From positions 1 to 24,510 of IMG/VR virus record IMGVR_UViG_3300037502_000842: a stretch of DNA of 24,510 nucleotides. One strand, 5' to 3'. The translations under genes and the position numbers were made by a program. The DNA comes from a virus. A model generated the notes under the pieces. The model was not told where the DNA came from and did not search any database. It was given only the letters and a program-made list of their open reading frames with translations. Position 1 is the stretch's first letter, and each line of letters opens with the position of its first letter. Shown in pieces: positions 11,284 through 24,506 of the stretch.

Positions 11284-12192
11284 TCAAGCCCCAGGGCTTC
11301 CAAACGCCCCAAGGGGATCAGAAACGCCGAAAGAATACCTCTCACGGGCCTTGTACCGGCTGTTGCCCGTGTCGAAGTCGGCATCCATGGACGTTGCCAG
11401 GGGCACGCGCACGAAGTGCTTCAGACCGTTGGGCACATCGGTGGTCAGGAACCACGCGTTGGTGTCGGTCAACCAGTGGTTGATCGTGTAGCCCTCGGGG
11501 ACCGAGCCGTTGTTCTTCAGGGCGTTGATGTCGTTGTCGGCGGTGCCAACACGGAGGTTGGTCTCCAACAGACGCGTTGCAACGAACTGAAGCGCCGGAG
11601 GCACGATCAGCTTGCGGGGCTTGGCGGCGATCAGGAGGCCACGCTCATCGGTCCAGCCAGCGATCTGAATGACCGCAGCTTCCAGCGAGGTCTCGTTCAG
11701 GTCAGCACCGACCGTGGGACGGTTGCTGTTGGAACCACCAGACACCAGCGGGTGAGCGGTGCTGAACAGCGATTGGCCGTCCCCGTAGGTCACGGAGGCG
11801 TTGAAACCGTTGTTCAGGATGGCGGCAGCCTTGACCTGCTTCGTGTACGCCATGGCCCGAGCGAGGGCCTTGGTGTAGCGCGCCGAGAGACTGTCGTACA
11901 GGTTGTCTTCCATCGCCTCTTCGGTGATGGAGAAGCCCATAGCGATGGTCTCGTGGTTGTAACGAGCGGTCCAGGCTTCCTGCGCATTGTCATACGCGAT
12001 GGCTTGGCCTTCGTTCTTCACCGGGGCGGCGCTGAAGCCGGAGAGCTTGGTCTCCTCTTCGAACGAACGCTCGGAGGTCTCCGTCTCGTAGATCTCCTTG
12101 TGCTCTTCGCCGTAACGCTTGTACTCCAGGCCGAACAGGGCGTTCAGACCAGGGAGCAGTTCCTTGAGTAGTTGGGCACGAGAAATTGCCAT
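11284..12192 (-). CDS. Major capsid protein (HK97-fold, Mu gpT-like)
   Basis: The 302-aa protein begins MAISRAQLLKELLPGLNALF then GLEYKRYGEEHKEIYE, which is the N-terminus typical of Mu gpT-like capsid proteins of many phages. YNHETIAMGFSITEEAMEDN, the conserved HPLVSGGSNSNRPT loop and PRKLIVPPALQFVATRLLE are all present and end in a conserved RERYSFGVSDPLG. Length and position between the scaffold-like genes and the terminator support the call. AAGGAG precedes the ATG. Upstream lie a 308-aa head protein and the scaffold; no protease gene is seen, and no cleavage site can be assigned by eye. Confidence 0.93.
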   Translation of the reverse strand: MAISRAQLLKELLPGLNALFGLEYKRYGEEHKEIYETETSERSFEEETKLSGFSAAPVKNEGQAIAYDNAQEAWTARYNHETIAMGFSITEEAMEDNLYDSLSARYTKALARAMAYTKQVKAAAILNNGFNASVTYGDGQSLFSTAHPLVSGGSNSNRPTVGADLNETSLEAAVIQIAGWTDERGLLIAAKPRKLIVPPALQFVATRLLETNLRVGTADNDINALKNNGSVPEGYTINHWLTDTNAWFLTTDVPNGLKHFVRVPLATSMDADFDTGNSRYKARERYSFGVSDPLGAFGSPGA

Positions 12193-15185: not shown

Positions 15186-17594
15186 TTATTGGGTGGGTTT
15201 TTGCTGTTTTTGTTGTTGAGGGGGCTTGACCATCGTCTTGACGAGGTCCGTCCGCAGCTTTTTATCGGTTTGAGCCGCCTGGGCTTGCAGTCTGGACTGC
15301 TCCTTGAGCATTTCTGACCGAATTCGCTCCTGTTCCAGGGCGATTTTCTGCTGGGCAATTTGGAAATCCCTCTGGCTATCAGCCTCCTTTCTCTGAAGTT
15401 CCTGGGCCCTGAGCTGAAGTTCAGCTTGTTGAAGCTGCAATTCAGGGTTTTGTGCCTGCTGTTGAGCTTGCTGTTGGGCAAACATGGCTTGGTTCTGGAC
15501 CATGGTCCTCTGGGCCGCTGCCGCGATGAGCGGGGCAAGGGCCTTTTCATCCTCCGGCGCGATGGGGGCGTTGTCATCCTCGTCCAGTTCAGGCAGAGGA
15601 ACACCCAACTGCATCTCAACCTGAGCCCGGTAGGCAAATGCAGCATGTTCTGCCAGATGAGCCATCAGCGCGGCCATCATTTGCTGCGACATGGGGTTCT
15701 GCCCCAGGACAGCAGCAATGCTTGGGTCTTGCATGAATGCCTGATGGGTTGCCATGTGGGCCTGATGGTCCTGATAGGCGAATGCCTTGATGGGCTGAAG
15801 CCTCAGAACAGCCATGTTCTCCGATACAGGATCACGGGGCTTCTGATCATCGGAGGTGGGAACCAGCTTTGCTGCGTCCTTGATGCCCAGAACCTCCAGC
15901 ATCTGCCTATGGAGCTTAGGTAGATCATAGATTTGTGGGGCACCTTGGGCCAGTTGGAGTGCCGCCTGATACTGCATGATCCGCTGGGCCATTGTTGCGG
16001 CGTTCGGATCGCTGACCGGGATCACCTCCACCATGTCGTAGTCCGCTTGTTTCAACGAACTACTACCGCCCTCCGGGGTGTAGGAATAGGACGGAGGCAT
16101 GAAGTCCCGGATGATCTTCTTCAGGAGCTTGAACTCCATCCGAAGACTGGCATGGACCCGGGCCTGCACGGCACTCATGGTCTTGAGTTGCCGCTCCAGG
16201 ATAGCCAGGGTTGTCCCCACCGGGGCCTGGGCGGACATGTCACTGATCTTCAGATCAGCAATGGCCGCGAGCCTGCGCCCCTCTTCGGTGATCCTTTCAA
16301 GAAGAGCGGCCAGAACTTGGCTGGGCTCCTTGTAGGGAAGGGGCATGATGTTGTCCCGCACCGCACCGGAGGGCACATCCACATCCCTGAACTCCCCCGG
16401 GGCAATTGGTGTGTCATCACCCTTGATCCGCAAACCCCGGGCCTTCAAGCCGCCGGGCAGATTACTTAGAGTGCCGGCATCGACAAGCTGTCGAATGATG
16501 CTGGTCCCTGCCCGGGCATATCCACCAATCAGATGGATATATCCCAGACCATATGCGCCAAACCCGGGAATATAGGTGTACTGGACAAAATGCTGTCGCT
16601 TTTGCTTCTTTTTGTCATCCTCTTCCCAGTTACGTCGAATGGACAAAACCTTGTTTGATCCACGTTCAATGGAAACTACATAGGGTAGTGCCACATCCTC
16701 CTCATAGCCGGGGAGGTCATAGTCCACATGGATCTCCATGACCCGGTAACGTTCATCGTCCTGAAGGTTATATCCCTGCTCTTCGGCCTTTTTCTTTTCG
16801 ATGTCCGAAAAGAATTGAACGGGCTCACCAAGATCAATATCTCGATAGAAGCGGGAAACCTGGAGTTTCCTGACTTCATTCTTGGTTTTGCGCATCACAT
16901 GGGTTACCCGCTCTGCGGTGTAAACATTGGAGGCGCCATAAGGGATGATCATGTCTTCCGCCGGGATAAAAGGGGCGGCGGGAAGGCGGGTGCTTTCATC
17001 CGGGTAGATCTTCTTGAAGCCTGCCCCAGAAAGACCCAGGGAATACAGAAGCCGCTCATGTTCTGAGCGGTAGTCAATCATCTTCTCGGTCAGGAAGACG
17101 TTCATATCTTCCCGGACCCGGTCAGCCACTTCCTCTTTCTGACGGGTGATCTGACCAATGATCTGCGTCTTGACCGGACCCTGGGCAGGGAAGGTTTCAA
17201 CGATCATCTCTGACTGGAACCTGACAGCAGCTTCCGTCAAGAGCGGAGAGAAGACTCCACATGCCCCATTCCAGGGCTCGGTCCTCTCTTCATACTTCAT
17301 CCCCAGGACTTCCAGACCCTTGATGTACATCTCGGTCCAGTCTTTCCGGGAGTTGATGTCTGCATCTACAAGCTCAATCAGCTCCGAGGCGATGGCGTCC
17401 AATGCCCCCTCATCCATGAACTCTGCCAGATTGGCATTGAAGTCCTCCGGATACTCTCCCTCTGGCTCAAGGACAACCTCCACACCATCCATGCCGATGG
17501 TGACCTTGTCCGGGTTCTCGATCTCAATCTCCAGGTCCGGACCTTCTGAGGGGAGATCCATGGGTTCAAGTGCCCGGTCGATATTGGTTGCCAT
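15186..17594 (-). CDS. Portal protein
   Basis: The start is the ATG at 17594, preceded by AAGGAT and 20 bases after the large terminase stop; an earlier TTG start would overlap that stop. The 802-aa protein contains conserved portal segments (SLGLSGAGFKKIYPDESTRL and PAAPFIPAEDMIIPYGASNV, then ERVTHVMRKTKNEVRKLQ) and a stem/crown region (GGYARAGTSIIRQLVDAGTL). The C-terminal 110 or so residues are Gln-rich with a coiled-coil run (LQQAELQLRAQELQRKEADS, then QRDFQIAQQKIALEQERIR) that could be a barrel-type extension. It forms the dodecameric ring through which DNA enters and leaves the head and docks the connector proteins. The call rests on motifs and on the gene order terminase-portal-scaffold-capsid. 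Confidence 0.92.
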   Translation of the reverse strand: MATNIDRALEPMDLPSEGPDLEIEIENPDKVTIGMDGVEVVLEPEGEYPEDFNANLAEFMDEGALDAIASELIELVDADINSRKDWTEMYIKGLEVLGMKYEERTEPWNGACGVFSPLLTEAAVRFQSEMIVETFPAQGPVKTQIIGQITRQKEEVADRVREDMNVFLTEKMIDYRSEHERLLYSLGLSGAGFKKIYPDESTRLPAAPFIPAEDMIIPYGASNVYTAERVTHVMRKTKNEVRKLQVSRFYRDIDLGEPVQFFSDIEKKKAEEQGYNLQDDERYRVMEIHVDYDLPGYEEDVALPYVVSIERGSNKVLSIRRNWEEDDKKKQKRQHFVQYTYIPGFGAYGLGYIHLIGGYARAGTSIIRQLVDAGTLSNLPGGLKARGLRIKGDDTPIAPGEFRDVDVPSGAVRDNIMPLPYKEPSQVLAALLERITEEGRRLAAIADLKISDMSAQAPVGTTLAILERQLKTMSAVQARVHASLRMEFKLLKKIIRDFMPPSYSYTPEGGSSSLKQADYDMVEVIPVSDPNAATMAQRIMQYQAALQLAQGAPQIYDLPKLHRQMLEVLGIKDAAKLVPTSDDQKPRDPVSENMAVLRLQPIKAFAYQDHQAHMATHQAFMQDPSIAAVLGQNPMSQQMMAALMAHLAEHAAFAYRAQVEMQLGVPLPELDEDDNAPIAPEDEKALAPLIAAAAQRTMVQNQAMFAQQQAQQQAQNPELQLQQAELQLRAQELQRKEADSQRDFQIAQQKIALEQERIRSEMLKEQSRLQAQAAQTDKKLRTDLVKTMVKPPQQQKQQKPTQ

Positions 17595-17614
17595 GTCTGA
17601 TCCTTGTAAACGAT

Positions 17615-19111
17615 TCAATAATAACTGACCCGCCTTCTGGCGAGAACATCGTCAGGCTCATCCGATGCAATGGAGATGAAGCCTCCCTTTCGGAACCTCA
17701 TCAAAGCCTGGGAGGCAGAGTCGGTCAGGTCATCATGCTCCCCATGGGGGAACTCTGCCATCTCTTCAGCAACTTCCTCTGCCCACCGCCGGTCAGGTCT
17801 CCAAACCATCCCAGAGGCAAACAGATCCACGATGGAGTTCACCCGGGAGATCTTGTCTTGCCCTTTGTATGGGGTGTATTCAGAGACCGGAACTCCAGCC
17901 TTACGAAGCTCATAGACCAAAGGAGCGCCAGCGGCTCTCTTTTCAATGATCGTGGTGTCAGGGCTCCATTCCCTGTACATCTCCACCGCTTTCCTCTTCA
18001 GATCCGGGAACTCCATCCGCTGTTTCAACGCATCCAGAAGGATGATGTTGGAGACCATGTTCCCATGCCTGTCCTCCCGGTCAAACACCCCCCAGGTGGT
18101 ACATGCCGAGTAGTCAGCCCTGTTCGAGGTCTCAAAGGCGGTATCCCAAGACTGGATGATGTACTGGCACGGAGGAGGACTCTCCCCCTCCCATATCTTC
18201 CAGTACTCCCGTTTAACTATCGCCCCCTCTTCCGAGGTCGGGTTCTGCTGGTACTGAGCTTCCCACTTGGCTACAGGGATCTCAGCCTTGATCGACTCCA
18301 ACTCCTCCTTCTTCCAGAACCCGGGCCACAAGGGAGTCCCAGAAGGAAGAATGGCCGGGAACTCAATGACTTCCCAGTCATCAGTGCCATCTTTTGAAGA
18401 GTTCTTCAGGATCTGCCCGGTCAAGTCCTTCTTGGACCACCGGGTCATCACCACAATGATCGCACCCCCAGGCTGTAAACGCTGTCTCGGACCAGAGGTG
18501 TACCACTCATACACAGCGTCATACACAGCAGGATTCCCCTGTTTCGCCTCCTGCTCGCTATGGGGATCGTCAATGATCAACAGATCAGCGCCCTTGCCAG
18601 TGACCGCTCCACCCACACCAATGGCAAAGTAGTCCCCGCCCTTGTCGGTGTTCCACCGCCCAGCAGCTTTCGAATCACTGGATAACTTGGTCCCAAAGAC
18701 CTTCTGGTAGTCCTCCGAAGAAACAAGGTTCCTAACCTTCCGGCCAAAACCCACAGCCAATTCCGCTGTATGTGCCGTCTGAATGATCTTCTTCTCCGGG
18801 TACTTCCCAAGGAACCAAGCAGGAAGCAGATACGAAGCAAACTCCGATTTGGTATGTCTCGGAGGCATGTTGATGATCAGCCTCTTCAACTCTCCATTGG
18901 CAACCCTCTCAAAAGCATCAGCCATGATCTGATGATGCTTCCCAGAGATAAACACCGGCCACATCTGCTTGACAAAGAACAGAAAGCTCTCCCGGCACCT
19001 CTGCACCCTGTCCATCTCAAGAAGAGCCTTGATCTTCTTCCTGTCCCCCTCCGACACCTTGTCCACTATCTGCAGATAGCTTGAGATCTCCTGCCTTGAC
19101 AACAATGTCAT
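17615..19111 (-). CDS. terL: Terminase large subunit
   Basis: The 498-aa protein has the ATPase motor: Walker-A-like PPRHTKSE (83-90), Walker B LLIIDDPH (177-184) and the coupling motif VMTRW (221-225). The C-terminal RNase-H-type nuclease has SWDTAFE with Asp323, TIIEKRAAG with Glu390 and HDDLTD around Asp460-Asp464, so both activities look intact. It drives DNA into the prohead through the portal and makes the packaging cuts. The start at 19111 has AGAGG upstream and includes KKIKALLEMDRVQRCRESF, which is typical coding sequence of this family; it overlaps the LexA-like gene by 95 bases. A shorter start at Met33 (19015), two bases after the stop of that gene, is possible. Confidence 0.95.
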   Translation of the reverse strand: MTLLSRQEISSYLQIVDKVSEGDRKKIKALLEMDRVQRCRESFLFFVKQMWPVFISGKHHQIMADAFERVANGELKRLIINMPPRHTKSEFASYLLPAWFLGKYPEKKIIQTAHTAELAVGFGRKVRNLVSSEDYQKVFGTKLSSDSKAAGRWNTDKGGDYFAIGVGGAVTGKGADLLIIDDPHSEQEAKQGNPAVYDAVYEWYTSGPRQRLQPGGAIIVVMTRWSKKDLTGQILKNSSKDGTDDWEVIEFPAILPSGTPLWPGFWKKEELESIKAEIPVAKWEAQYQQNPTSEEGAIVKREYWKIWEGESPPPCQYIIQSWDTAFETSNRADYSACTTWGVFDREDRHGNMVSNIILLDALKQRMEFPDLKRKAVEMYREWSPDTTIIEKRAAGAPLVYELRKAGVPVSEYTPYKGQDKISRVNSIVDLFASGMVWRPDRRWAEEVAEEMAEFPHGEHDDLTDSASQALMRFRKGGFISIASDEPDDVLARRRVSYY

Positions 19112-19552: not shown

Positions 19553-20206
19553 TCAACGCTCGTCGGTGCCGGTCCTGCCCACGAGGCGCAGGTGCTGCGC
19601 GAGATCCCGGCGCAGCGCATCGGGCGAAGCCGGCGTGTCGCGCTCCTGCGGTGCTGATGTAAACGCGCCGCTGGCCTTGCCTAGTAGCTCCAATGCCCGG
19701 AGCCGGGTGTTGTCCGCCGTGCCTTTACTTAGCTCCACCAGACTCCGCACCACATAACGCCGAGCCGCTATGTGGTCCTCAACGAGTGCCTCTTGCGTCT
19801 GCTCCCATGCCTGATCGATGAGTGCCCGGATCCTCGGGTTGCGTCCTAGCCGGTATGCCTGGACGCTTGCTGACTCATCTGAGGCCTGCGACCCATAGGC
19901 ATCCCTATACGCCTGTCTGAGGCTGCTGCCCTCTATGACGCGTCTCGCAAACTCCTGTTGCTTGGCAGTCAGTGGGCGCAGGCGACGGTAGCTGGGCATG
20001 CCCCTTAGCTCTCCGTCTCCTCTCCTCTCTGGTGCTGGTGAAGCCTGGGCAGCCTGCTCCGCTTCGCTCAACTCCGGGCCGGGCTCTTGTTCGTTTAAAC
20101 GGTCTAGGTCCGCCTCAGCCTGCGCCAGGGCATCGAGCACGTCCCGCTGGCTCGCCTTCCCCCGCGTCCGCCCAGGCCCGCCGCCATTCCCTGTGGTTTC
20201 GTACAT
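19553..20206 (-). CDS. terS: Terminase small subunit
   Basis: The 217-aa protein has a low-complexity acidic N-terminus (1-68; rich in Glu, Ala, Pro and Gln), then LTAKQQEFARRVIEGSSLRQ, AYRDAYGSQASDESASVQAY and RLGRNPRIRALIDQAWEQTQ, which is the DNA-binding helix-turn-helix signature of small terminases, and a helical oligomerisation region (140-180, DHIAARRYVVRSLVELSKGT then LRALELLGKASGAF). It recognises the packaging start site and stimulates the large subunit. The gene is separated from terL by about 440 bases including the LexA-like gene and the repeats. Its base composition is more GC-rich than terL. A promoter with 17-base spacing lies just upstream. Confidence 0.9.
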   Translation of the reverse strand: MYETTGNGGGPGRTRGKASQRDVLDALAQAEADLDRLNEQEPGPELSEAEQAAQASPAPERRGDGELRGMPSYRRLRPLTAKQQEFARRVIEGSSLRQAYRDAYGSQASDESASVQAYRLGRNPRIRALIDQAWEQTQEALVEDHIAARRYVVRSLVELSKGTADNTRLRALELLGKASGAFTSAPQERDTPASPDALRRDLAQHLRLVGRTGTDER

Positions 20207-20234: not shown

Positions 20235-20263
20235 ATTATCCACAGGTTGTTCAAACATGGCAA
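20235..20263 (-). promoter_or_regulatory. Sigma70-type promoter for the small terminase / late minus-strand genes
   Basis: On the minus strand TTGCCA (20258-20263) and GATAAT (20235-20240) are separated by exactly 17 bases, five of six matches to each consensus hexamer. The expected start is about 20228, leaving a short leader to the ATG at 20206. The -10 hexamer overlaps the DnaA box at 20236-20244. Confidence 0.6.
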
Positions 20264-20349
20264 GTTGTCCACAGGCTGTGGATAAACCTTAGATCTGCCT
20301 CATTTTTGAGCATTTGTCTATGAAGCCCTGTGGATAACTTTGTGGACAA
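20236..20349. other. Cluster of five DnaA boxes (origin-like or DnaA-responsive region)
   Basis: Five 9-mers of the bacterial DnaA-box type lie within 114 bases: TTATCCACA at 20236-20244; TTGTCCACA at 20265-20273; TGTGGATAA at 20277-20285; TGTGGATAA at 20329-20337; TGTGGACAA at 20341-20349. Boxes two and three form an inverted pair three bases apart, and four and five a direct pair three bases apart. An AT-rich run (20364-20379, seven or more T) follows on the right, as an unwinding element would. This sits in the 460-base gap between the divergent minus-strand and plus-strand genes. It may be the replication origin or a host-DnaA switch. Confidence 0.85.
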
Positions 20350-20501
20350 CTCGCTAGAAGCTCCGATCTATTTTTTTCCATACCCAGGTAGCCATGCACC
20401 CCTTGCGCGTCTCCTGGGCCCTTCTAGGCCCCTTCCTGCGGCATGGATGCCTGTACAGGTTTGACCCTTGGGTTTACTTGGTCTTCTGTCTCTGCTACTC
20501 A

Positions 20502-20577: not shown

Positions 20578-20606
20578 TTGCAATCCCCTGTTTAACCCGG
20601 TATGCT
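20578..20606 (+). promoter_or_regulatory. Sigma70-type promoter for the SprT-like/AAA+/VWA operon
   Basis: TTGCAA (20578-20583) and TATGCT (20601-20606) are separated by exactly 17 bases. The expected transcription start is about 20613, leaving a leader of about 54 bases before the ATG at 20667. Confidence 0.6.
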
Positions 20607-20666: not shown

Positions 20667-21239
20667 ATGGCGTATCAGACCCGCGAGGAGTGGCTCAATG
20701 CCGCCCTCAGCATCATCAGGGACCGCGTGCCCGGGCTCGCGTCCCGCGTGCGTGTTGCGTGCGGTTTTCCCAGCACGTACACCCGCTCCGGCACTCTGTC
20801 GGAGTGCTGGCCTGATAAAGCCTCGAAGGATGGCACCTGGGAGGTTCTCATCAGTCCGACCGTCGCCCTCCCGACGGAGGTGTTCACGTTGCTCCTGGGC
20901 AGCGTGCTGCATACCCTCCCGGGCGCCGCCTCGAAGACGTCCACCACCTACCGGTCGGCATGCCTCGATGCTGGTCTGGCCCCCGCCGATGAATCGTGGA
21001 AGTCCCTGACCGGCACCGAGTACCTGTGGGAGACCTACGGTGCGGATCTTGAGGCACTCGGCACCTACCCGCACGCCGAGATCCAGGCCGGGACCAGGAA
21101 GGTCCAGACAACCCGCATGTTGAAACTGACGTGCCCCCAGTGCGGCTACATCGTCCGCACCAGCGCCCGCTGGCTCGCCACCGGCGTCCCGACCTGCCAC
21201 GACGGCGCCGAGTTCACTGTTGAGGAGTCCGCAGAATGA
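20667..21239 (+). CDS. SprT-like protein with lost HExxH motif and C-terminal zinc ribbon
   Basis: I start the gene at the ATG at 20667, with AGGAG eight bases upstream, rather than the earlier GTG at 20637, which lies in the leader hairpin. The 190-aa protein resembles phage SprT-like zincins: ACGFPSTYTRSGTLSECWP (31-49), LISPTVALPTEVF (61-73), the position where relatives have HExxH reads GSVLH (78-82), then LGTYPHAEIQAG (131-142) and MLKLTCPQCGYIVRTSARWL (151-170) with Cys156, Cys159 and Cys177. The metal-binding His and catalytic Glu are replaced by Gly78 and Ser79, so protease activity is unlikely. It overlaps the AAA+ gene by four bases (ATGA) and probably acts with it, perhaps as an adaptor. 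Confidence 0.72.
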   Translation: MAYQTREEWLNAALSIIRDRVPGLASRVRVACGFPSTYTRSGTLSECWPDKASKDGTWEVLISPTVALPTEVFTLLLGSVLHTLPGAASKTSTTYRSACLDAGLAPADESWKSLTGTEYLWETYGADLEALGTYPHAEIQAGTRKVQTTRMLKLTCPQCGYIVRTSARWLATGVPTCHDGAEFTVEESAE

Positions 21240-22804
21240 ATTCCATCCAAGCCCAGGCCGCGCTGGCCTCTATCCCCATGCCTACCCTGCTGGCTGCCTA
21301 CAGGTCGCTGACGGGCGATATGGCATCGACCGTGTCCCGCTCGCAGGTGATCCAGTCCCTTGCATCACTTGTCGGCAAGGGCCACCTGACCATTGACGAC
21401 ATCCGCAACAACGGCGCCCAGGCTGGCCGCGCCACGTTGGGCCGCGCCACGCCCGCATTCACCCCCCCTGTAGCCCCCTCCCGCACCCCCGCCGGGCCGG
21501 ACACGGTCCAGGTGGCCCATCAAGCCCAGTGGGACGCAACTCAGGCAACCCAGGCGGCAGAGGCGGCGCGGCAGCAGGCGGAGTCGGTCCGCCAGCAGGC
21601 GGAGTCCACGGCGCGGCACCTAGAGGCCCGCATCGACGGGGTCGCTCGGGACATTGGATCCCTGGCCTCTACCGTGTCATCCCGGGTGACCAGCATCGAC
21701 GGCAACATCGCAGACCTGGGCACCAGGGTCGGAGCCCTCTCCGCTGACCTGCGCAAGGTGACCCGCGCCGATGCTGATCAGATCCAGACCCAGGTGGCCG
21801 AGGCAGTGTCTGCCGCGCTACGCCCGGTCCTGGCAGTGATCGAGGAGCGCCCCGAGCTTGCCCCTCAGGTAGCCCAGGCTGCGGCGACTCCGGTCCTGGC
21901 CGACTGCGATGAGGTTTTCGGCCTCGATGCCCGCGACCCCCGGGGCGAGCCGCTGCGGTTCTCTGTCTACGCGCACCCCGAGGCGCCCGCGATTGACGGG
22001 CATCACCTGTGGACCGAACGCATGGTGCGCTACCTCGCACTCGCCCAGGCTACCGGGCGCAATGTCTGGCTGGGTGGCCCCGCAGGGACGGGCAAGACCC
22101 AGACGGTCGCCCAGTTCGCGGCCCGCACCGGGCGCCTGTTCCGTCGCTTTGTCTTCGACCGTCTCGCCACCCGCGAGGACTACCTTGGCGCCATCGGCCT
22201 GCAGCAGGGCTCGACGGTGTTTCAGCAGGGTCCGGTGCTGGATGTTTACACAACACCCGGTGCGGTCTGTCTCCTCGACGAGGTCGGCATGGGTAACGCG
22301 AGCGCCCTGTCTAGCCTCAACGGCTGGCTGGAGCCCGGCGCCAGGATGGCATACGCAGACCGGGTCTGGCACCGCGCCCAGGGGAGCATGTTCTTCGCCT
22401 GCGACAACTCGCTGACCCAGGGCGACCAGTCCGGGCGGTATGCCGGAGTCGGCACGATGAACGTGGCGTTCGCTGACAGGTTCTCGTTCGTGGTGCCGAT
22501 GACCTACCTCGATCCCGACCAAGAGGCAGACGCTATCGCCCGCCATACCGGGTGCTCGGTCACCCTGGCGCGGCACGTAGTCGATGCCCTGGCGGTCTGC
22601 CGCTCGAAAGTGGACAAGGGCGAGATCATCGATGCGCCCAGCATTCGGCAGGCTATCGCTTTCGTGGAAGCCTGCCGCTTCCTTCCCGTCGCCGAGGCGT
22701 GGCAATTGGCGATCCTGGCCCGCCAGCCTGCCGAGTCTTCGGTGTCCCTCGCTGCGGTCTATGCGTCCGCGATCAACGAGGCCCTGATCACCCGGGAGGT
22801 CTGA
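21236..22804 (+). CDS. MoxR/CobS-type AAA+ ATPase with N-terminal coiled coil
   Basis: The 522-aa protein has an N-terminal helical domain (1-60), a Pro/Ala-rich linker, a long heptad-type coiled coil (about 105-178; AARQQAESVRQQAESTARHL) and a C-terminal AAA+ module: Walker A GPAGTGKT (281-288), Walker B VCLLDEV (344-350), sensor-1-like FFACDNS with Asn391, and NVAFADRFSF (409-418) with the arginine expected near the subunit interface. The order and the GRNVWLGGPAGTGKTQTV core point to the MoxR/CobS/CbbQ group, often called cobS in phages. Such ATPases remodel proteins with VWA partners; the VWA gene follows one base later. The coiled coil is longer than in bacterial MoxR and may tether a target. 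Confidence 0.9.
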   Translation: MNSIQAQAALASIPMPTLLAAYRSLTGDMASTVSRSQVIQSLASLVGKGHLTIDDIRNNGAQAGRATLGRATPAFTPPVAPSRTPAGPDTVQVAHQAQWDATQATQAAEAARQQAESVRQQAESTARHLEARIDGVARDIGSLASTVSSRVTSIDGNIADLGTRVGALSADLRKVTRADADQIQTQVAEAVSAALRPVLAVIEERPELAPQVAQAAATPVLADCDEVFGLDARDPRGEPLRFSVYAHPEAPAIDGHHLWTERMVRYLALAQATGRNVWLGGPAGTGKTQTVAQFAARTGRLFRRFVFDRLATREDYLGAIGLQQGSTVFQQGPVLDVYTTPGAVCLLDEVGMGNASALSSLNGWLEPGARMAYADRVWHRAQGSMFFACDNSLTQGDQSGRYAGVGTMNVAFADRFSFVVPMTYLDPDQEADAIARHTGCSVTLARHVVDALAVCRSKVDKGEIIDAPSIRQAIAFVEACRFLPVAEAWQLAILARQPAESSVSLAAVYASAINEALITREV

Positions 22805-22805
22805 C

Positions 22806-24506
22806 ATGTCTGCCCTCGACACCCTCGCCCCCATCATGGCCCGCCCCTGGGTCCACGGTCACGCCTTCCGGCGCGGCATCGAGACGTTCGCGCACCACGC
22901 ATGCGCCGCCCTGGGCCTCGCCCCGGTGGAGGTCGCCTGGACCAACTACATCAGGACCGCAGCTATCAACGCGCACGGCACGATGCTCCTGCCCGACTGC
23001 GCCGACGACGAACGCAAGACCAAGGGTGACGTCGCCCGCCTCGCGGGATACGTCACGCACGAACTCCTGCACCGCAAGTACACGGACTTCAGCGCCCGGG
23101 ACCGGCGCCCCTACGTCGCCGCCCTCCACAACGCCATCGAAGACGCCTGGATCGAGCGTCGCGCCGCCCGCGAGGGTCTGCTCGGCAACGTCCGCCCGCT
23201 GCTCGGCGCAATGATCGAGGACATGGTGACCGAGTCCCTGCAGACCGTGTCCGACTGGACCGACCCGGCCCAGTACCCATGGGCCCTGGCAGTCCTGGCT
23301 CGGGGCTATGGGGTGACCGTCCCGGTCCCAGGCTCCCTCCTGCCCGCCTTCCGGTCGGTCGCTGACGGGGTCGATGGATGCACCACCTCGCACGACACCC
23401 TGGCCCTGGCGCGGTGGCTGTTCGACCAACTGCAGCAAGACCCGCAGCAGGACCAGCAGCAGGACCAGCAGCAGGACTCGCAAGGCCAGGACGGGCAGCA
23501 GGATGGCCCGCAGGGCGCCCAGGACGGAGGGGGCCAGGACGGGCAGCAGGACGCCCAGGACGGGCAGCAGGATGGCGAGGGCCAGGACGGTCAGCAGCAG
23601 GGCCAGGGCGGGGAGGGACAAGGCGGGCAGCAGCAGGGCGACGCTCCCGCTGACGCAGGCCCCGCGCAGCGCCCAGGCCCCTATACGACGCCCCGCGAGA
23701 CTGAGCCGCACCCGGGGCATGGGACCGGACCCGCATCAGGTGGTAGCTACCAGCGCAAACCGGCGCCTCCTGGGAAGCTGGGATCCTATTCGTCAGTGTG
23801 CTGGGCATCGAACCTCGCAGTCCCCGCCCGCCTGCGCTATGAGGTCCGCAGGCTCTTCGAGAACTCGGCCCGCGAATGGCGCGACGGTGGATTTAGGTCC
23901 GGCACCCTGCACCGCGCCGCCCTGCATAAGGTGCCCCTGGACCGTCCGGAGATCTTCGCTCGCCGCTTCAGCGAGGAGGGCATCGATTCCGCCGTGGTGA
24001 TCCTGCTCGACATCAGCGGGTCCATGAACCCCGAATTCTTCCAGCCGCCCTACATCGAGCAGTCCAAGATTGCAACCGCAGTGTCCTCCTGCATCATGCT
24101 CATGGACTGCCTCGCCCAGGCGGGGGCACAGTCGATGGTCATCGCGTTCGGCGAGAGGACTCACGTGGTCAAGACCTGGACCCAGAATTGGCGCACCGTG
24201 GTGCCTACCCTGCAGCAGATCGGGACCGAGGGCGACACGAACGACTTCCATGCTCTGCGCCTCGCACATGAGCACCTATTGCAGCATCCCGCGCAGCGTC
24301 GCGTGGTGTTCGCCCTGACCGATGGCGAGGGCAACCGCGACGCCACCCGAGAACAACGGACCAGCGGGGAAGCCCTGGGGATCCAGCACTGGTGCCTCGG
24401 GATCCAGCACGACGCCCGTCATACCTGGGGCCCGAACACCATCCGCGTGGACCGCGTCGCAGACCTGGGCCGGGTGGCCTTTCAACAGATCAAGCAAGCC
24501 GCTTGA
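22806..24506 (+). CDS. CobT-like metallopeptidase-VWA protein with Gln/Asp/Gly linker
   Basis: The 566-aa protein has an N-terminal metallopeptidase-like domain with HELLH at 85-89 and LHNAIEDAWIERR at 107-119 supplying the expected downstream acidic residues, an extended Gln/Asp/Gly-rich linker (209-278), and a C-terminal VWA domain with the metal-ion-dependent adhesion site DISGS (402-406), Thr478 in GDTNDF and Asp506 in LTDGEGN, all present. This layout is that of CobT-like/DUF2201-like partners of MoxR ATPases. The VWA domain probably binds a substrate protein or metal and the ATPase remodels it. Whether the zincin site is active cannot be judged by eye. The gene starts one base after the ATPase gene stop and ends four bases before the window end. 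Confidence 0.88.
   Translation: MSALDTLAPIMARPWVHGHAFRRGIETFAHHACAALGLAPVEVAWTNYIRTAAINAHGTMLLPDCADDERKTKGDVARLAGYVTHELLHRKYTDFSARDRRPYVAALHNAIEDAWIERRAAREGLLGNVRPLLGAMIEDMVTESLQTVSDWTDPAQYPWALAVLARGYGVTVPVPGSLLPAFRSVADGVDGCTTSHDTLALARWLFDQLQQDPQQDQQQDQQQDSQGQDGQQDGPQGAQDGGGQDGQQDAQDGQQDGEGQDGQQQGQGGEGQGGQQQGDAPADAGPAQRPGPYTTPRETEPHPGHGTGPASGGSYQRKPAPPGKLGSYSSVCWASNLAVPARLRYEVRRLFENSAREWRDGGFRSGTLHRAALHKVPLDRPEIFARRFSEEGIDSAVVILLDISGSMNPEFFQPPYIEQSKIATAVSSCIMLMDCLAQAGAQSMVIAFGERTHVVKTWTQNWRTVVPTLQQIGTEGDTNDFHALRLAHEHLLQHPAQRRVVFALTDGEGNRDATREQRTSGEALGIQHWCLGIQHDARHTWGPNTIRVDRVADLGRVAFQQIKQAA
23430..23639 (+). repeat. Degenerate Gln/Asp/Gly-coding repeat (protein linker)
   Basis: CAGCAGGAC-type triplets repeat through this stretch and code for residues 209-278, in the pattern QQDQQQDQQQD then GQDGQQDG variants. 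Runs like this expand and shrink by replication slippage, so length is likely to vary among relatives. Confidence 0.85.

Follow-up and report, generated by a model that had tools for sequence, protein, structure and literature searches.

The locus analysed here, a cluster of five 9-mers of DnaA-box type beside the late genes of a phage, raises the question of which protein reads these sites and to what effect. A preliminary description of the sequence had offered three functions: recruitment of host DnaA for replication, titration of DnaA, or a late-gene switch. The whole stretch of DNA analysed (the window) is a 24.5 kb virus record (24,510 bases) and is probably a fragment.

The array and its setting

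All five exact 9-mers previously described at 20236–20349 were recovered, each matching TTWTNCACA or TTRTCCACA (Table 1). Three are copies of TTATCCACA and two of TTGTCCACA, a usual DnaA box in other bacteria. The inverted pair (boxes 2 and 3) and the direct pair (boxes 4 and 5), each with a gap of 3 nt, were likewise confirmed. The five are the only TTNTCCACA sites in the whole window, for which a mean of 0.72 was expected by chance, and five were reached in none of 100 shuffles; these shuffles, together with the counts in 29 non-redundant regions given below, ruled out a chance origin of the array. A lone near-match, TTATTCACA, is located at 2750.

The array is intergenic, as had been stated, and lies between the leftward terS (start 20206) and a rightward SprT-like gene (from ca. 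20667). Genes to the left of 20.2 kb are late genes and run leftward, and those to the right of 20.6 kb run rightward. The AT content is 0.58 inside the array versus 0.41 for the whole contig. The AT-rich run said to adjoin the boxes is present as a T7 tract (20371–20377), but it is only modest. AGATCT, which in the E. coli dnaA promoter is the 6-mer reported for ATP-DnaA (PMC8203912), is found between boxes 3 and 4 (20291–20296) and is kept only partly in relatives. The rightward operon (20667–24506), comprising the SprT-like, CobS/MoxR-like ATPase and CobT-like von Willebrand A genes, is conserved in the clade described below and probably encodes a module of chaperone/protease type and not of cobalamin synthesis.

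Table 1. Coordinates of boxes, predicted promoters and genes in the window.
Feature	Position	Strand	Remarks
DnaA box 1	20236–20244	+	TTATCCACA; overlaps -10 hexamer of predicted terS promoter
DnaA box 2	20265–20273	+	TTGTCCACA; 1 base upstream of terS -35 hexamer
DnaA box 3	20277–20285	-	TTATCCACA; inverted partner of box 2, gap 3
DnaA box 4	20329–20337	-	TTATCCACA
DnaA box 5	20341–20349	-	TTGTCCACA
Predicted sigma70-like promoter, terS/late operon	20235–20263	-	-35 TTGCCA (20263–20258), 17-nt spacer, -10 GATAAT (20240–20235), then GTGAAC
Predicted promoter, SprT-like/CobS/CobT operon	20578–20606	+	TTGCAA-17-TATGCT; block conserved in L002–L006
Capsid-like gene	11284–12192	-	leftward
Portal protein	15186–17618	-	phrog_1216, 1e-25
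terL, terminase large subunit	17615–19111	-	phrog_38, 1.2e-106
terS, terminase small subunit	19553–20206	-	phrog_51, 6e-16; PF03592, 1.2e-06; first gene of leftward late operon
phrog_6361 protein, SprT-like protease	20667–21239	+	annotation of distant phage homologues; clade marker gene
CobS/MoxR-like AAA ATPase	21236–22804	+	phrog_249, 5.1e-35
CobT-like von Willebrand A protein	22806–24506	+	PF13519, 2.6e-12; phrog_17276

Conservation of the boxes and their probable reader

Five IMG/VR contigs (L002–L006, CobS identity 86–92%) served as close relatives. Boxes 1–3 are kept in all five. Box 4 is kept in L002 and L004, in both of which box 5 reads TTGTTCACA, and boxes 4 and 5 are lost with a deletion of ca. 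170 bp in L003, L005 and L006. Boxes 2 and 3 are 3 nt apart in the window and 2 nt apart in L002 and L004, so that conservation extends to the 9-mers but not to the spacer.

Scanning of 2.9 million viral contigs of IMG/VR with the inverted box pair gave at least 120 loci, versus 8 with a control pattern of equal base composition, and at least 13 of these loci were divergent clade members with boxes beside terS. Because such a scan selects for boxes, two further sets were recruited by protein alone, with TerL and with the phrog_6361 protein. In the TerL set, two or more boxes stood beside terS in 14 of the 14 loci that had a TerL identity of at least 76% and reached past terS; the boxes fade below ca. 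73%, most loci being without them at 70–73% TerL identity and almost no loci having them below that. Among the 78 loci recruited by phrog_6361 that also showed terS (boxes not being used for recruitment), 77 carried 2–7 boxes between terS and the phrog_6361 gene, with 0–3 boxes in the remainder of each 4–13 kb locus; L285 was the single exception. Since some of these loci were near-duplicates, the set was reduced by clustering at <15% shared 12-mers to 29 non-redundant regions, which are largely unalignable. Within 400 bp of terS these regions hold 96 boxes, versus ca. 0.7 expected; the maximum in 300 Markov shuffles was 4, and the best of 400 permuted motifs occurred 8 times. At least two boxes are present in 27 of the 29 regions, some clade members carrying two only, and their orientation varies ('++', '+++', '---', '----', '++--', '+-+-+', '++--++').

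The search for other DnaA boxes that had been proposed was extended to the genomes of eight relatives (40–66 kb), each of which holds one box cluster and 0–2 stray TTRTCCACA sites genome-wide. The array is a feature of a clade of uncultured tailed phages and not of the window contig alone, and the possibility that the boxes might not be conserved in close relatives was dispelled by the five contigs as well as by the 77 loci. A captured fragment of a host oriC was ruled out, the element being clade-wide at one genomic place. One of the relatives (G004, 66,006 bp) has an end overlap of 285 bp and reads as a complete circular map of 65.7 kb, on which RusA, a PD-(D/E)XK exonuclease, a Sak annealing protein and a MazG-like protein are encoded along with a primase-helicase (phrog_239, 2.5e-88). 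Another contig, G005 (IMGVR_UViG_3300042516_001671, 95 kb), combines a 65.7-kb genome unit with a short wrap-around stretch and a tail of unrelated sequence and is likely an assembly chimera.

When the 29 regions were searched without a motif, the most shared 8-mers were pieces of TTATCCACA. The substitutions tolerated within the boxes were A>G at position 3 (20 cases) and C>G at position 5 (13 cases), each with ca. 0.1–0.3 expected, and almost none were seen at positions 2, 4 and 8. E. coli DnaA tolerates change at position 5, where C is best and A or G next (PMC5835720), and the tolerance of the boxes at positions 3 and 5 matches that of DnaA in comparison with this source. An initiator gene, for which a search had been suggested, was sought as a DnaA homologue, and no match to the DnaA C-terminal domain (Bac_DnaA_C) is encoded in the eight relatives. 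A phage-encoded DnaA was thus rejected as the binder, and the reader would be the DnaA of the host. Judged from the sequences, it is very likely that DnaA reads the boxes; the earlier assignment of the sites to host DnaA is strongly supported by their conservation, their exact spelling and the DnaA-like tolerance at positions 3 and 5. As for the host, the best match in bacterial genomes was L312, a contig of 5 kb in the bin of a Burkholderiales MAG, and hints weakly at Burkholderiales; the dnaA region of that MAG contains three TTATCCACA sites.

Proposed late-promoter control and its rivals

Five of the six -10 bases of the predicted terS promoter are covered by box 1. Across the clade, GNGAAC preceded by a -10-like hexamer and a -35 was found in 18 of the 29 regions, the -10 being GATAAT in 7 of these 18. 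The promoters anchored in this manner had a mean score of 6.5, versus 2.9 at random positions; 15 of them are overlapped by a box, 10 of them at the -10. The spacer of TTGACG-16-GATAAT in L266 is occupied by two boxes, an arrangement resembled by those of L253, L272 and L290. As in DnaA-regulated promoters, the predicted promoter thus has a box inside or adjoining it. No GNGAAC-anchored promoter was found in 11 of the 29 regions, and the boxes of L252, L260 and L312 lie upstream of the best promoter and not on it, so that simple occlusion is not universal. In a free search of all 29 regions, the best promoter in the terS direction scored 7.0, only modestly above the 6.5 of shuffles; because of this modest score, and because the GNGAAC anchor was picked after inspection of the regions, the terS promoter is to be taken as a supported prediction and not as a fact.

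Other elements recur nearby. CAGTACTG and GTTTAAAC are found near the terS leader in the clade (e.g., L254, L263, L291), and a related GTTTAA motif is located inside the spacer of the rightward promoter of the window; these elements are candidates for an operator through which a phage regulator would act on both of the divergent promoters. Another conserved block, resembling GGTAGGTAGCCTGAACCCC, lies ca. 100–150 nt from the boxes (e.g., L261, L268; ca. 20380–20400 in the window).

Of the three functions offered at the outset, the late-gene switch fits best, the array being placed on the predicted sigma70-like terS promoter. With chances slightly better than even, the boxes are sites at which host DnaA would regulate the late operon. 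With box 1 lying over the -10 and box 2 directly next to the -35, bound DnaA should block RNA polymerase at the late promoter, and DnaA probably represses this promoter until phage copies titrate it. Early in infection, host DnaA would occupy the promoter of terS, terL, portal and capsid genes and keep RNA polymerase off. As phage genome copies accumulate, each with several boxes, they would outnumber and titrate free DnaA, upon which the late promoter would open; the expression of packaging and virion genes would thereby follow phage copy number, and initiation at the host oriC would be slowed by this titration as well. Titration by DnaA boxes is reported to derepress DnaA-repressed promoters (PMC8203912, PMC5835720); in E. 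coli, DnaA represses dnaA, and extra boxes on a plasmid relieve this repression (PMC8203912). The DnaA titration proposed earlier may accordingly be part of the mechanism of such a switch. Taken as a whole, a copy-number gate, in which DnaA shuts the late promoter and amplification titrates DnaA, opens the promoter and starves the host origin, is put forward tentatively, as something that may well prove otherwise. L285 and several more distant members (TerL 70–73%), all without boxes, count against late-promoter control by DnaA. The main alternative is regulation of the opposite sign, with DnaA activating the late promoter as it does at lambda.

Rather less can be said for the array as a DnaA-dependent origin, at which host DnaA would open the DNA, the phage primase-helicase would be loaded and host polymerase would carry out synthesis; this reading is doubtful, although several features speak for it. 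Several consensus boxes lie within ca. 110 bp, the AT content of the array is raised in the relatives (mean 0.57, versus 0.45 for contigs), and the complete relative encodes the primase-helicase mentioned above. No match to PolA, PolB or PolIII-alpha was found in the eight relatives, which also have no DnaA match; host replication proteins are therefore probably used, which makes a DnaA origin possible. In a phage family not related to the clade, a '++--' array is followed by a stretch of very high AT content. No consistently strong AT-rich unwinding element was, however, seen across the regions: the AT content, only slightly raised, is 0.57 in the array and ca. 0.5 beside it, and the best 40-mer (0.69) lies at scattered positions. 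The cumulative GC-skew minimum that had been proposed as a check is absent from the array of the complete 65.7-kb relative, which lies at 21.5 kb on a slope between extremes at ca. 6 and 32 kb; the skew curve rotated at the array is dominated by net strand bias. The array also adjoins terS, ca. 6–11 kb from the primase-helicase and recombination genes, and the order, number and orientation of the boxes vary from '++' to '----' to '++--++', down to two boxes in some members. Such variety in orientation is more in keeping with a regulatory site than with an origin of rigid layout. The origin grammar claimed in the preliminary description is the weaker part of that interpretation, given the variable architecture, the lack of a fixed unwinding element or skew minimum and a location at the late operon, away from the replication genes. 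Origin and promoter roles may coexist, as in lambda.

Two further readings, both improbable, would dispense with a DnaA-read promoter. The boxes might be a pure DnaA sponge with which phage copies stop initiation of the host chromosome, with no role for the phage promoter: with 2–7 consensus boxes on each of many genome copies, the phage could compete with the host, and titration by box-bearing plasmids is documented (PMC5835720). The location of a sponge would, however, be free and a larger number of boxes would be favoured, whereas in the clade the boxes keep their place at the terS promoter. Alternatively, the sites might be read by a phage protein (TerS at a pac site, or a phage regulator) and merely resemble DnaA boxes. 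Pac sites are often near terS and the position of the array is compatible with one, and the recurrent GTTTAAAC and CAGTACTG motifs of the same region could be phage operators. Against such a reader, the spelling and tolerance of the boxes match DnaA, and the 9-mer is unchanged while TerS identity to that of the window drops to ca. 35–40% across the set; TerS of L285 is ca. 66% identical to that of box-bearing relatives, yet L285 has no boxes, and box-pair scans also recover arrays in unrelated phages. Formation of DNA or RNA hairpins by the inverted repeats, for example as a terminator, is hardly credible: boxes 2 and 3 form an inverted pair that is perfect but for one position, but many members have same-strand boxes only ('++', '+++', '---', '----'), and this reading was rejected on the varying box orientations.

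Relation to known systems

Lytic phages must time their late genes to follow DNA replication. If late-promoter control by DnaA is true, a promoter read by the host initiator would couple late genes to replication without a phage activator, and initiator titration, which has been studied in bacterial cell-cycle control, would also be used by viruses. The array provides a testable element of 120 bp and a marker for the uncultured phage clade. No published description of a DnaA-box array on a phage late promoter was found in a search without preprints and most subscription journals; on DnaA boxes in phages, the literature found was confined to studies of lambda and to a single Ori-Finder prediction, made for a Pseudomonas phage.

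Arrays were also seen outside the clade. An unrelated IMG/VR family with terS of the Sf6 type (PF20901) has a conserved '++--' DnaA-box array just 3' of terS (L027, L055, L058, L064, L065, L105, L114, L119), with a very AT-rich run ca. 100 bp beyond it, and this array looks more origin-like. In many viral contigs (L033, L035, L050, L057, L068, L091 and others), an inverted DnaA-box pair is contained in a reading frame of 237–238 aa. DnaA-box arrays in phages are suggested to be more widespread than the literature found records, and an initiator-titration switch, if one is conserved in the uncultured clade, was perhaps reached independently by the unrelated family too.

The closest isolates by TerL (HTVC027P, HTVC023P, DSL-LC04 and 023Pt_psg01, 50–58%) have related late proteins and, unlike the clade relatives, encode PolA-type polymerases; no DnaA-box cluster was found in the stretches read of these four and of MinM2. 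With bacterial oriC and DnaA-dependent plasmid origins, the array shares clustered consensus boxes in both orientations in an intergenic position, but it differs in its variable architecture, its location at terS and the absence of a clear unwinding element or skew minimum. In lambda (pR/pO, ori-lambda), the phage DNA is bound by host DnaA, which influences phage transcription as well as replication and acts through transcription near the origin (PMC3985674, PMC8203912). The two box-like sites reported there lie downstream of pO and the replication region is the target, whereas the clade has 2–7 consensus boxes at the late operon, conserved clade-wide. The E. coli promoters regulated by DnaA (dnaA, nrdAB, mioC) likewise have consensus boxes within or beside the promoter; DnaA acts there as a repressor or an activator, and repression is lifted when extra boxes titrate it (PMC8203912, PMC5835720). 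In the present case, the promoter belongs to a phage and apparently drives terminase and virion genes.
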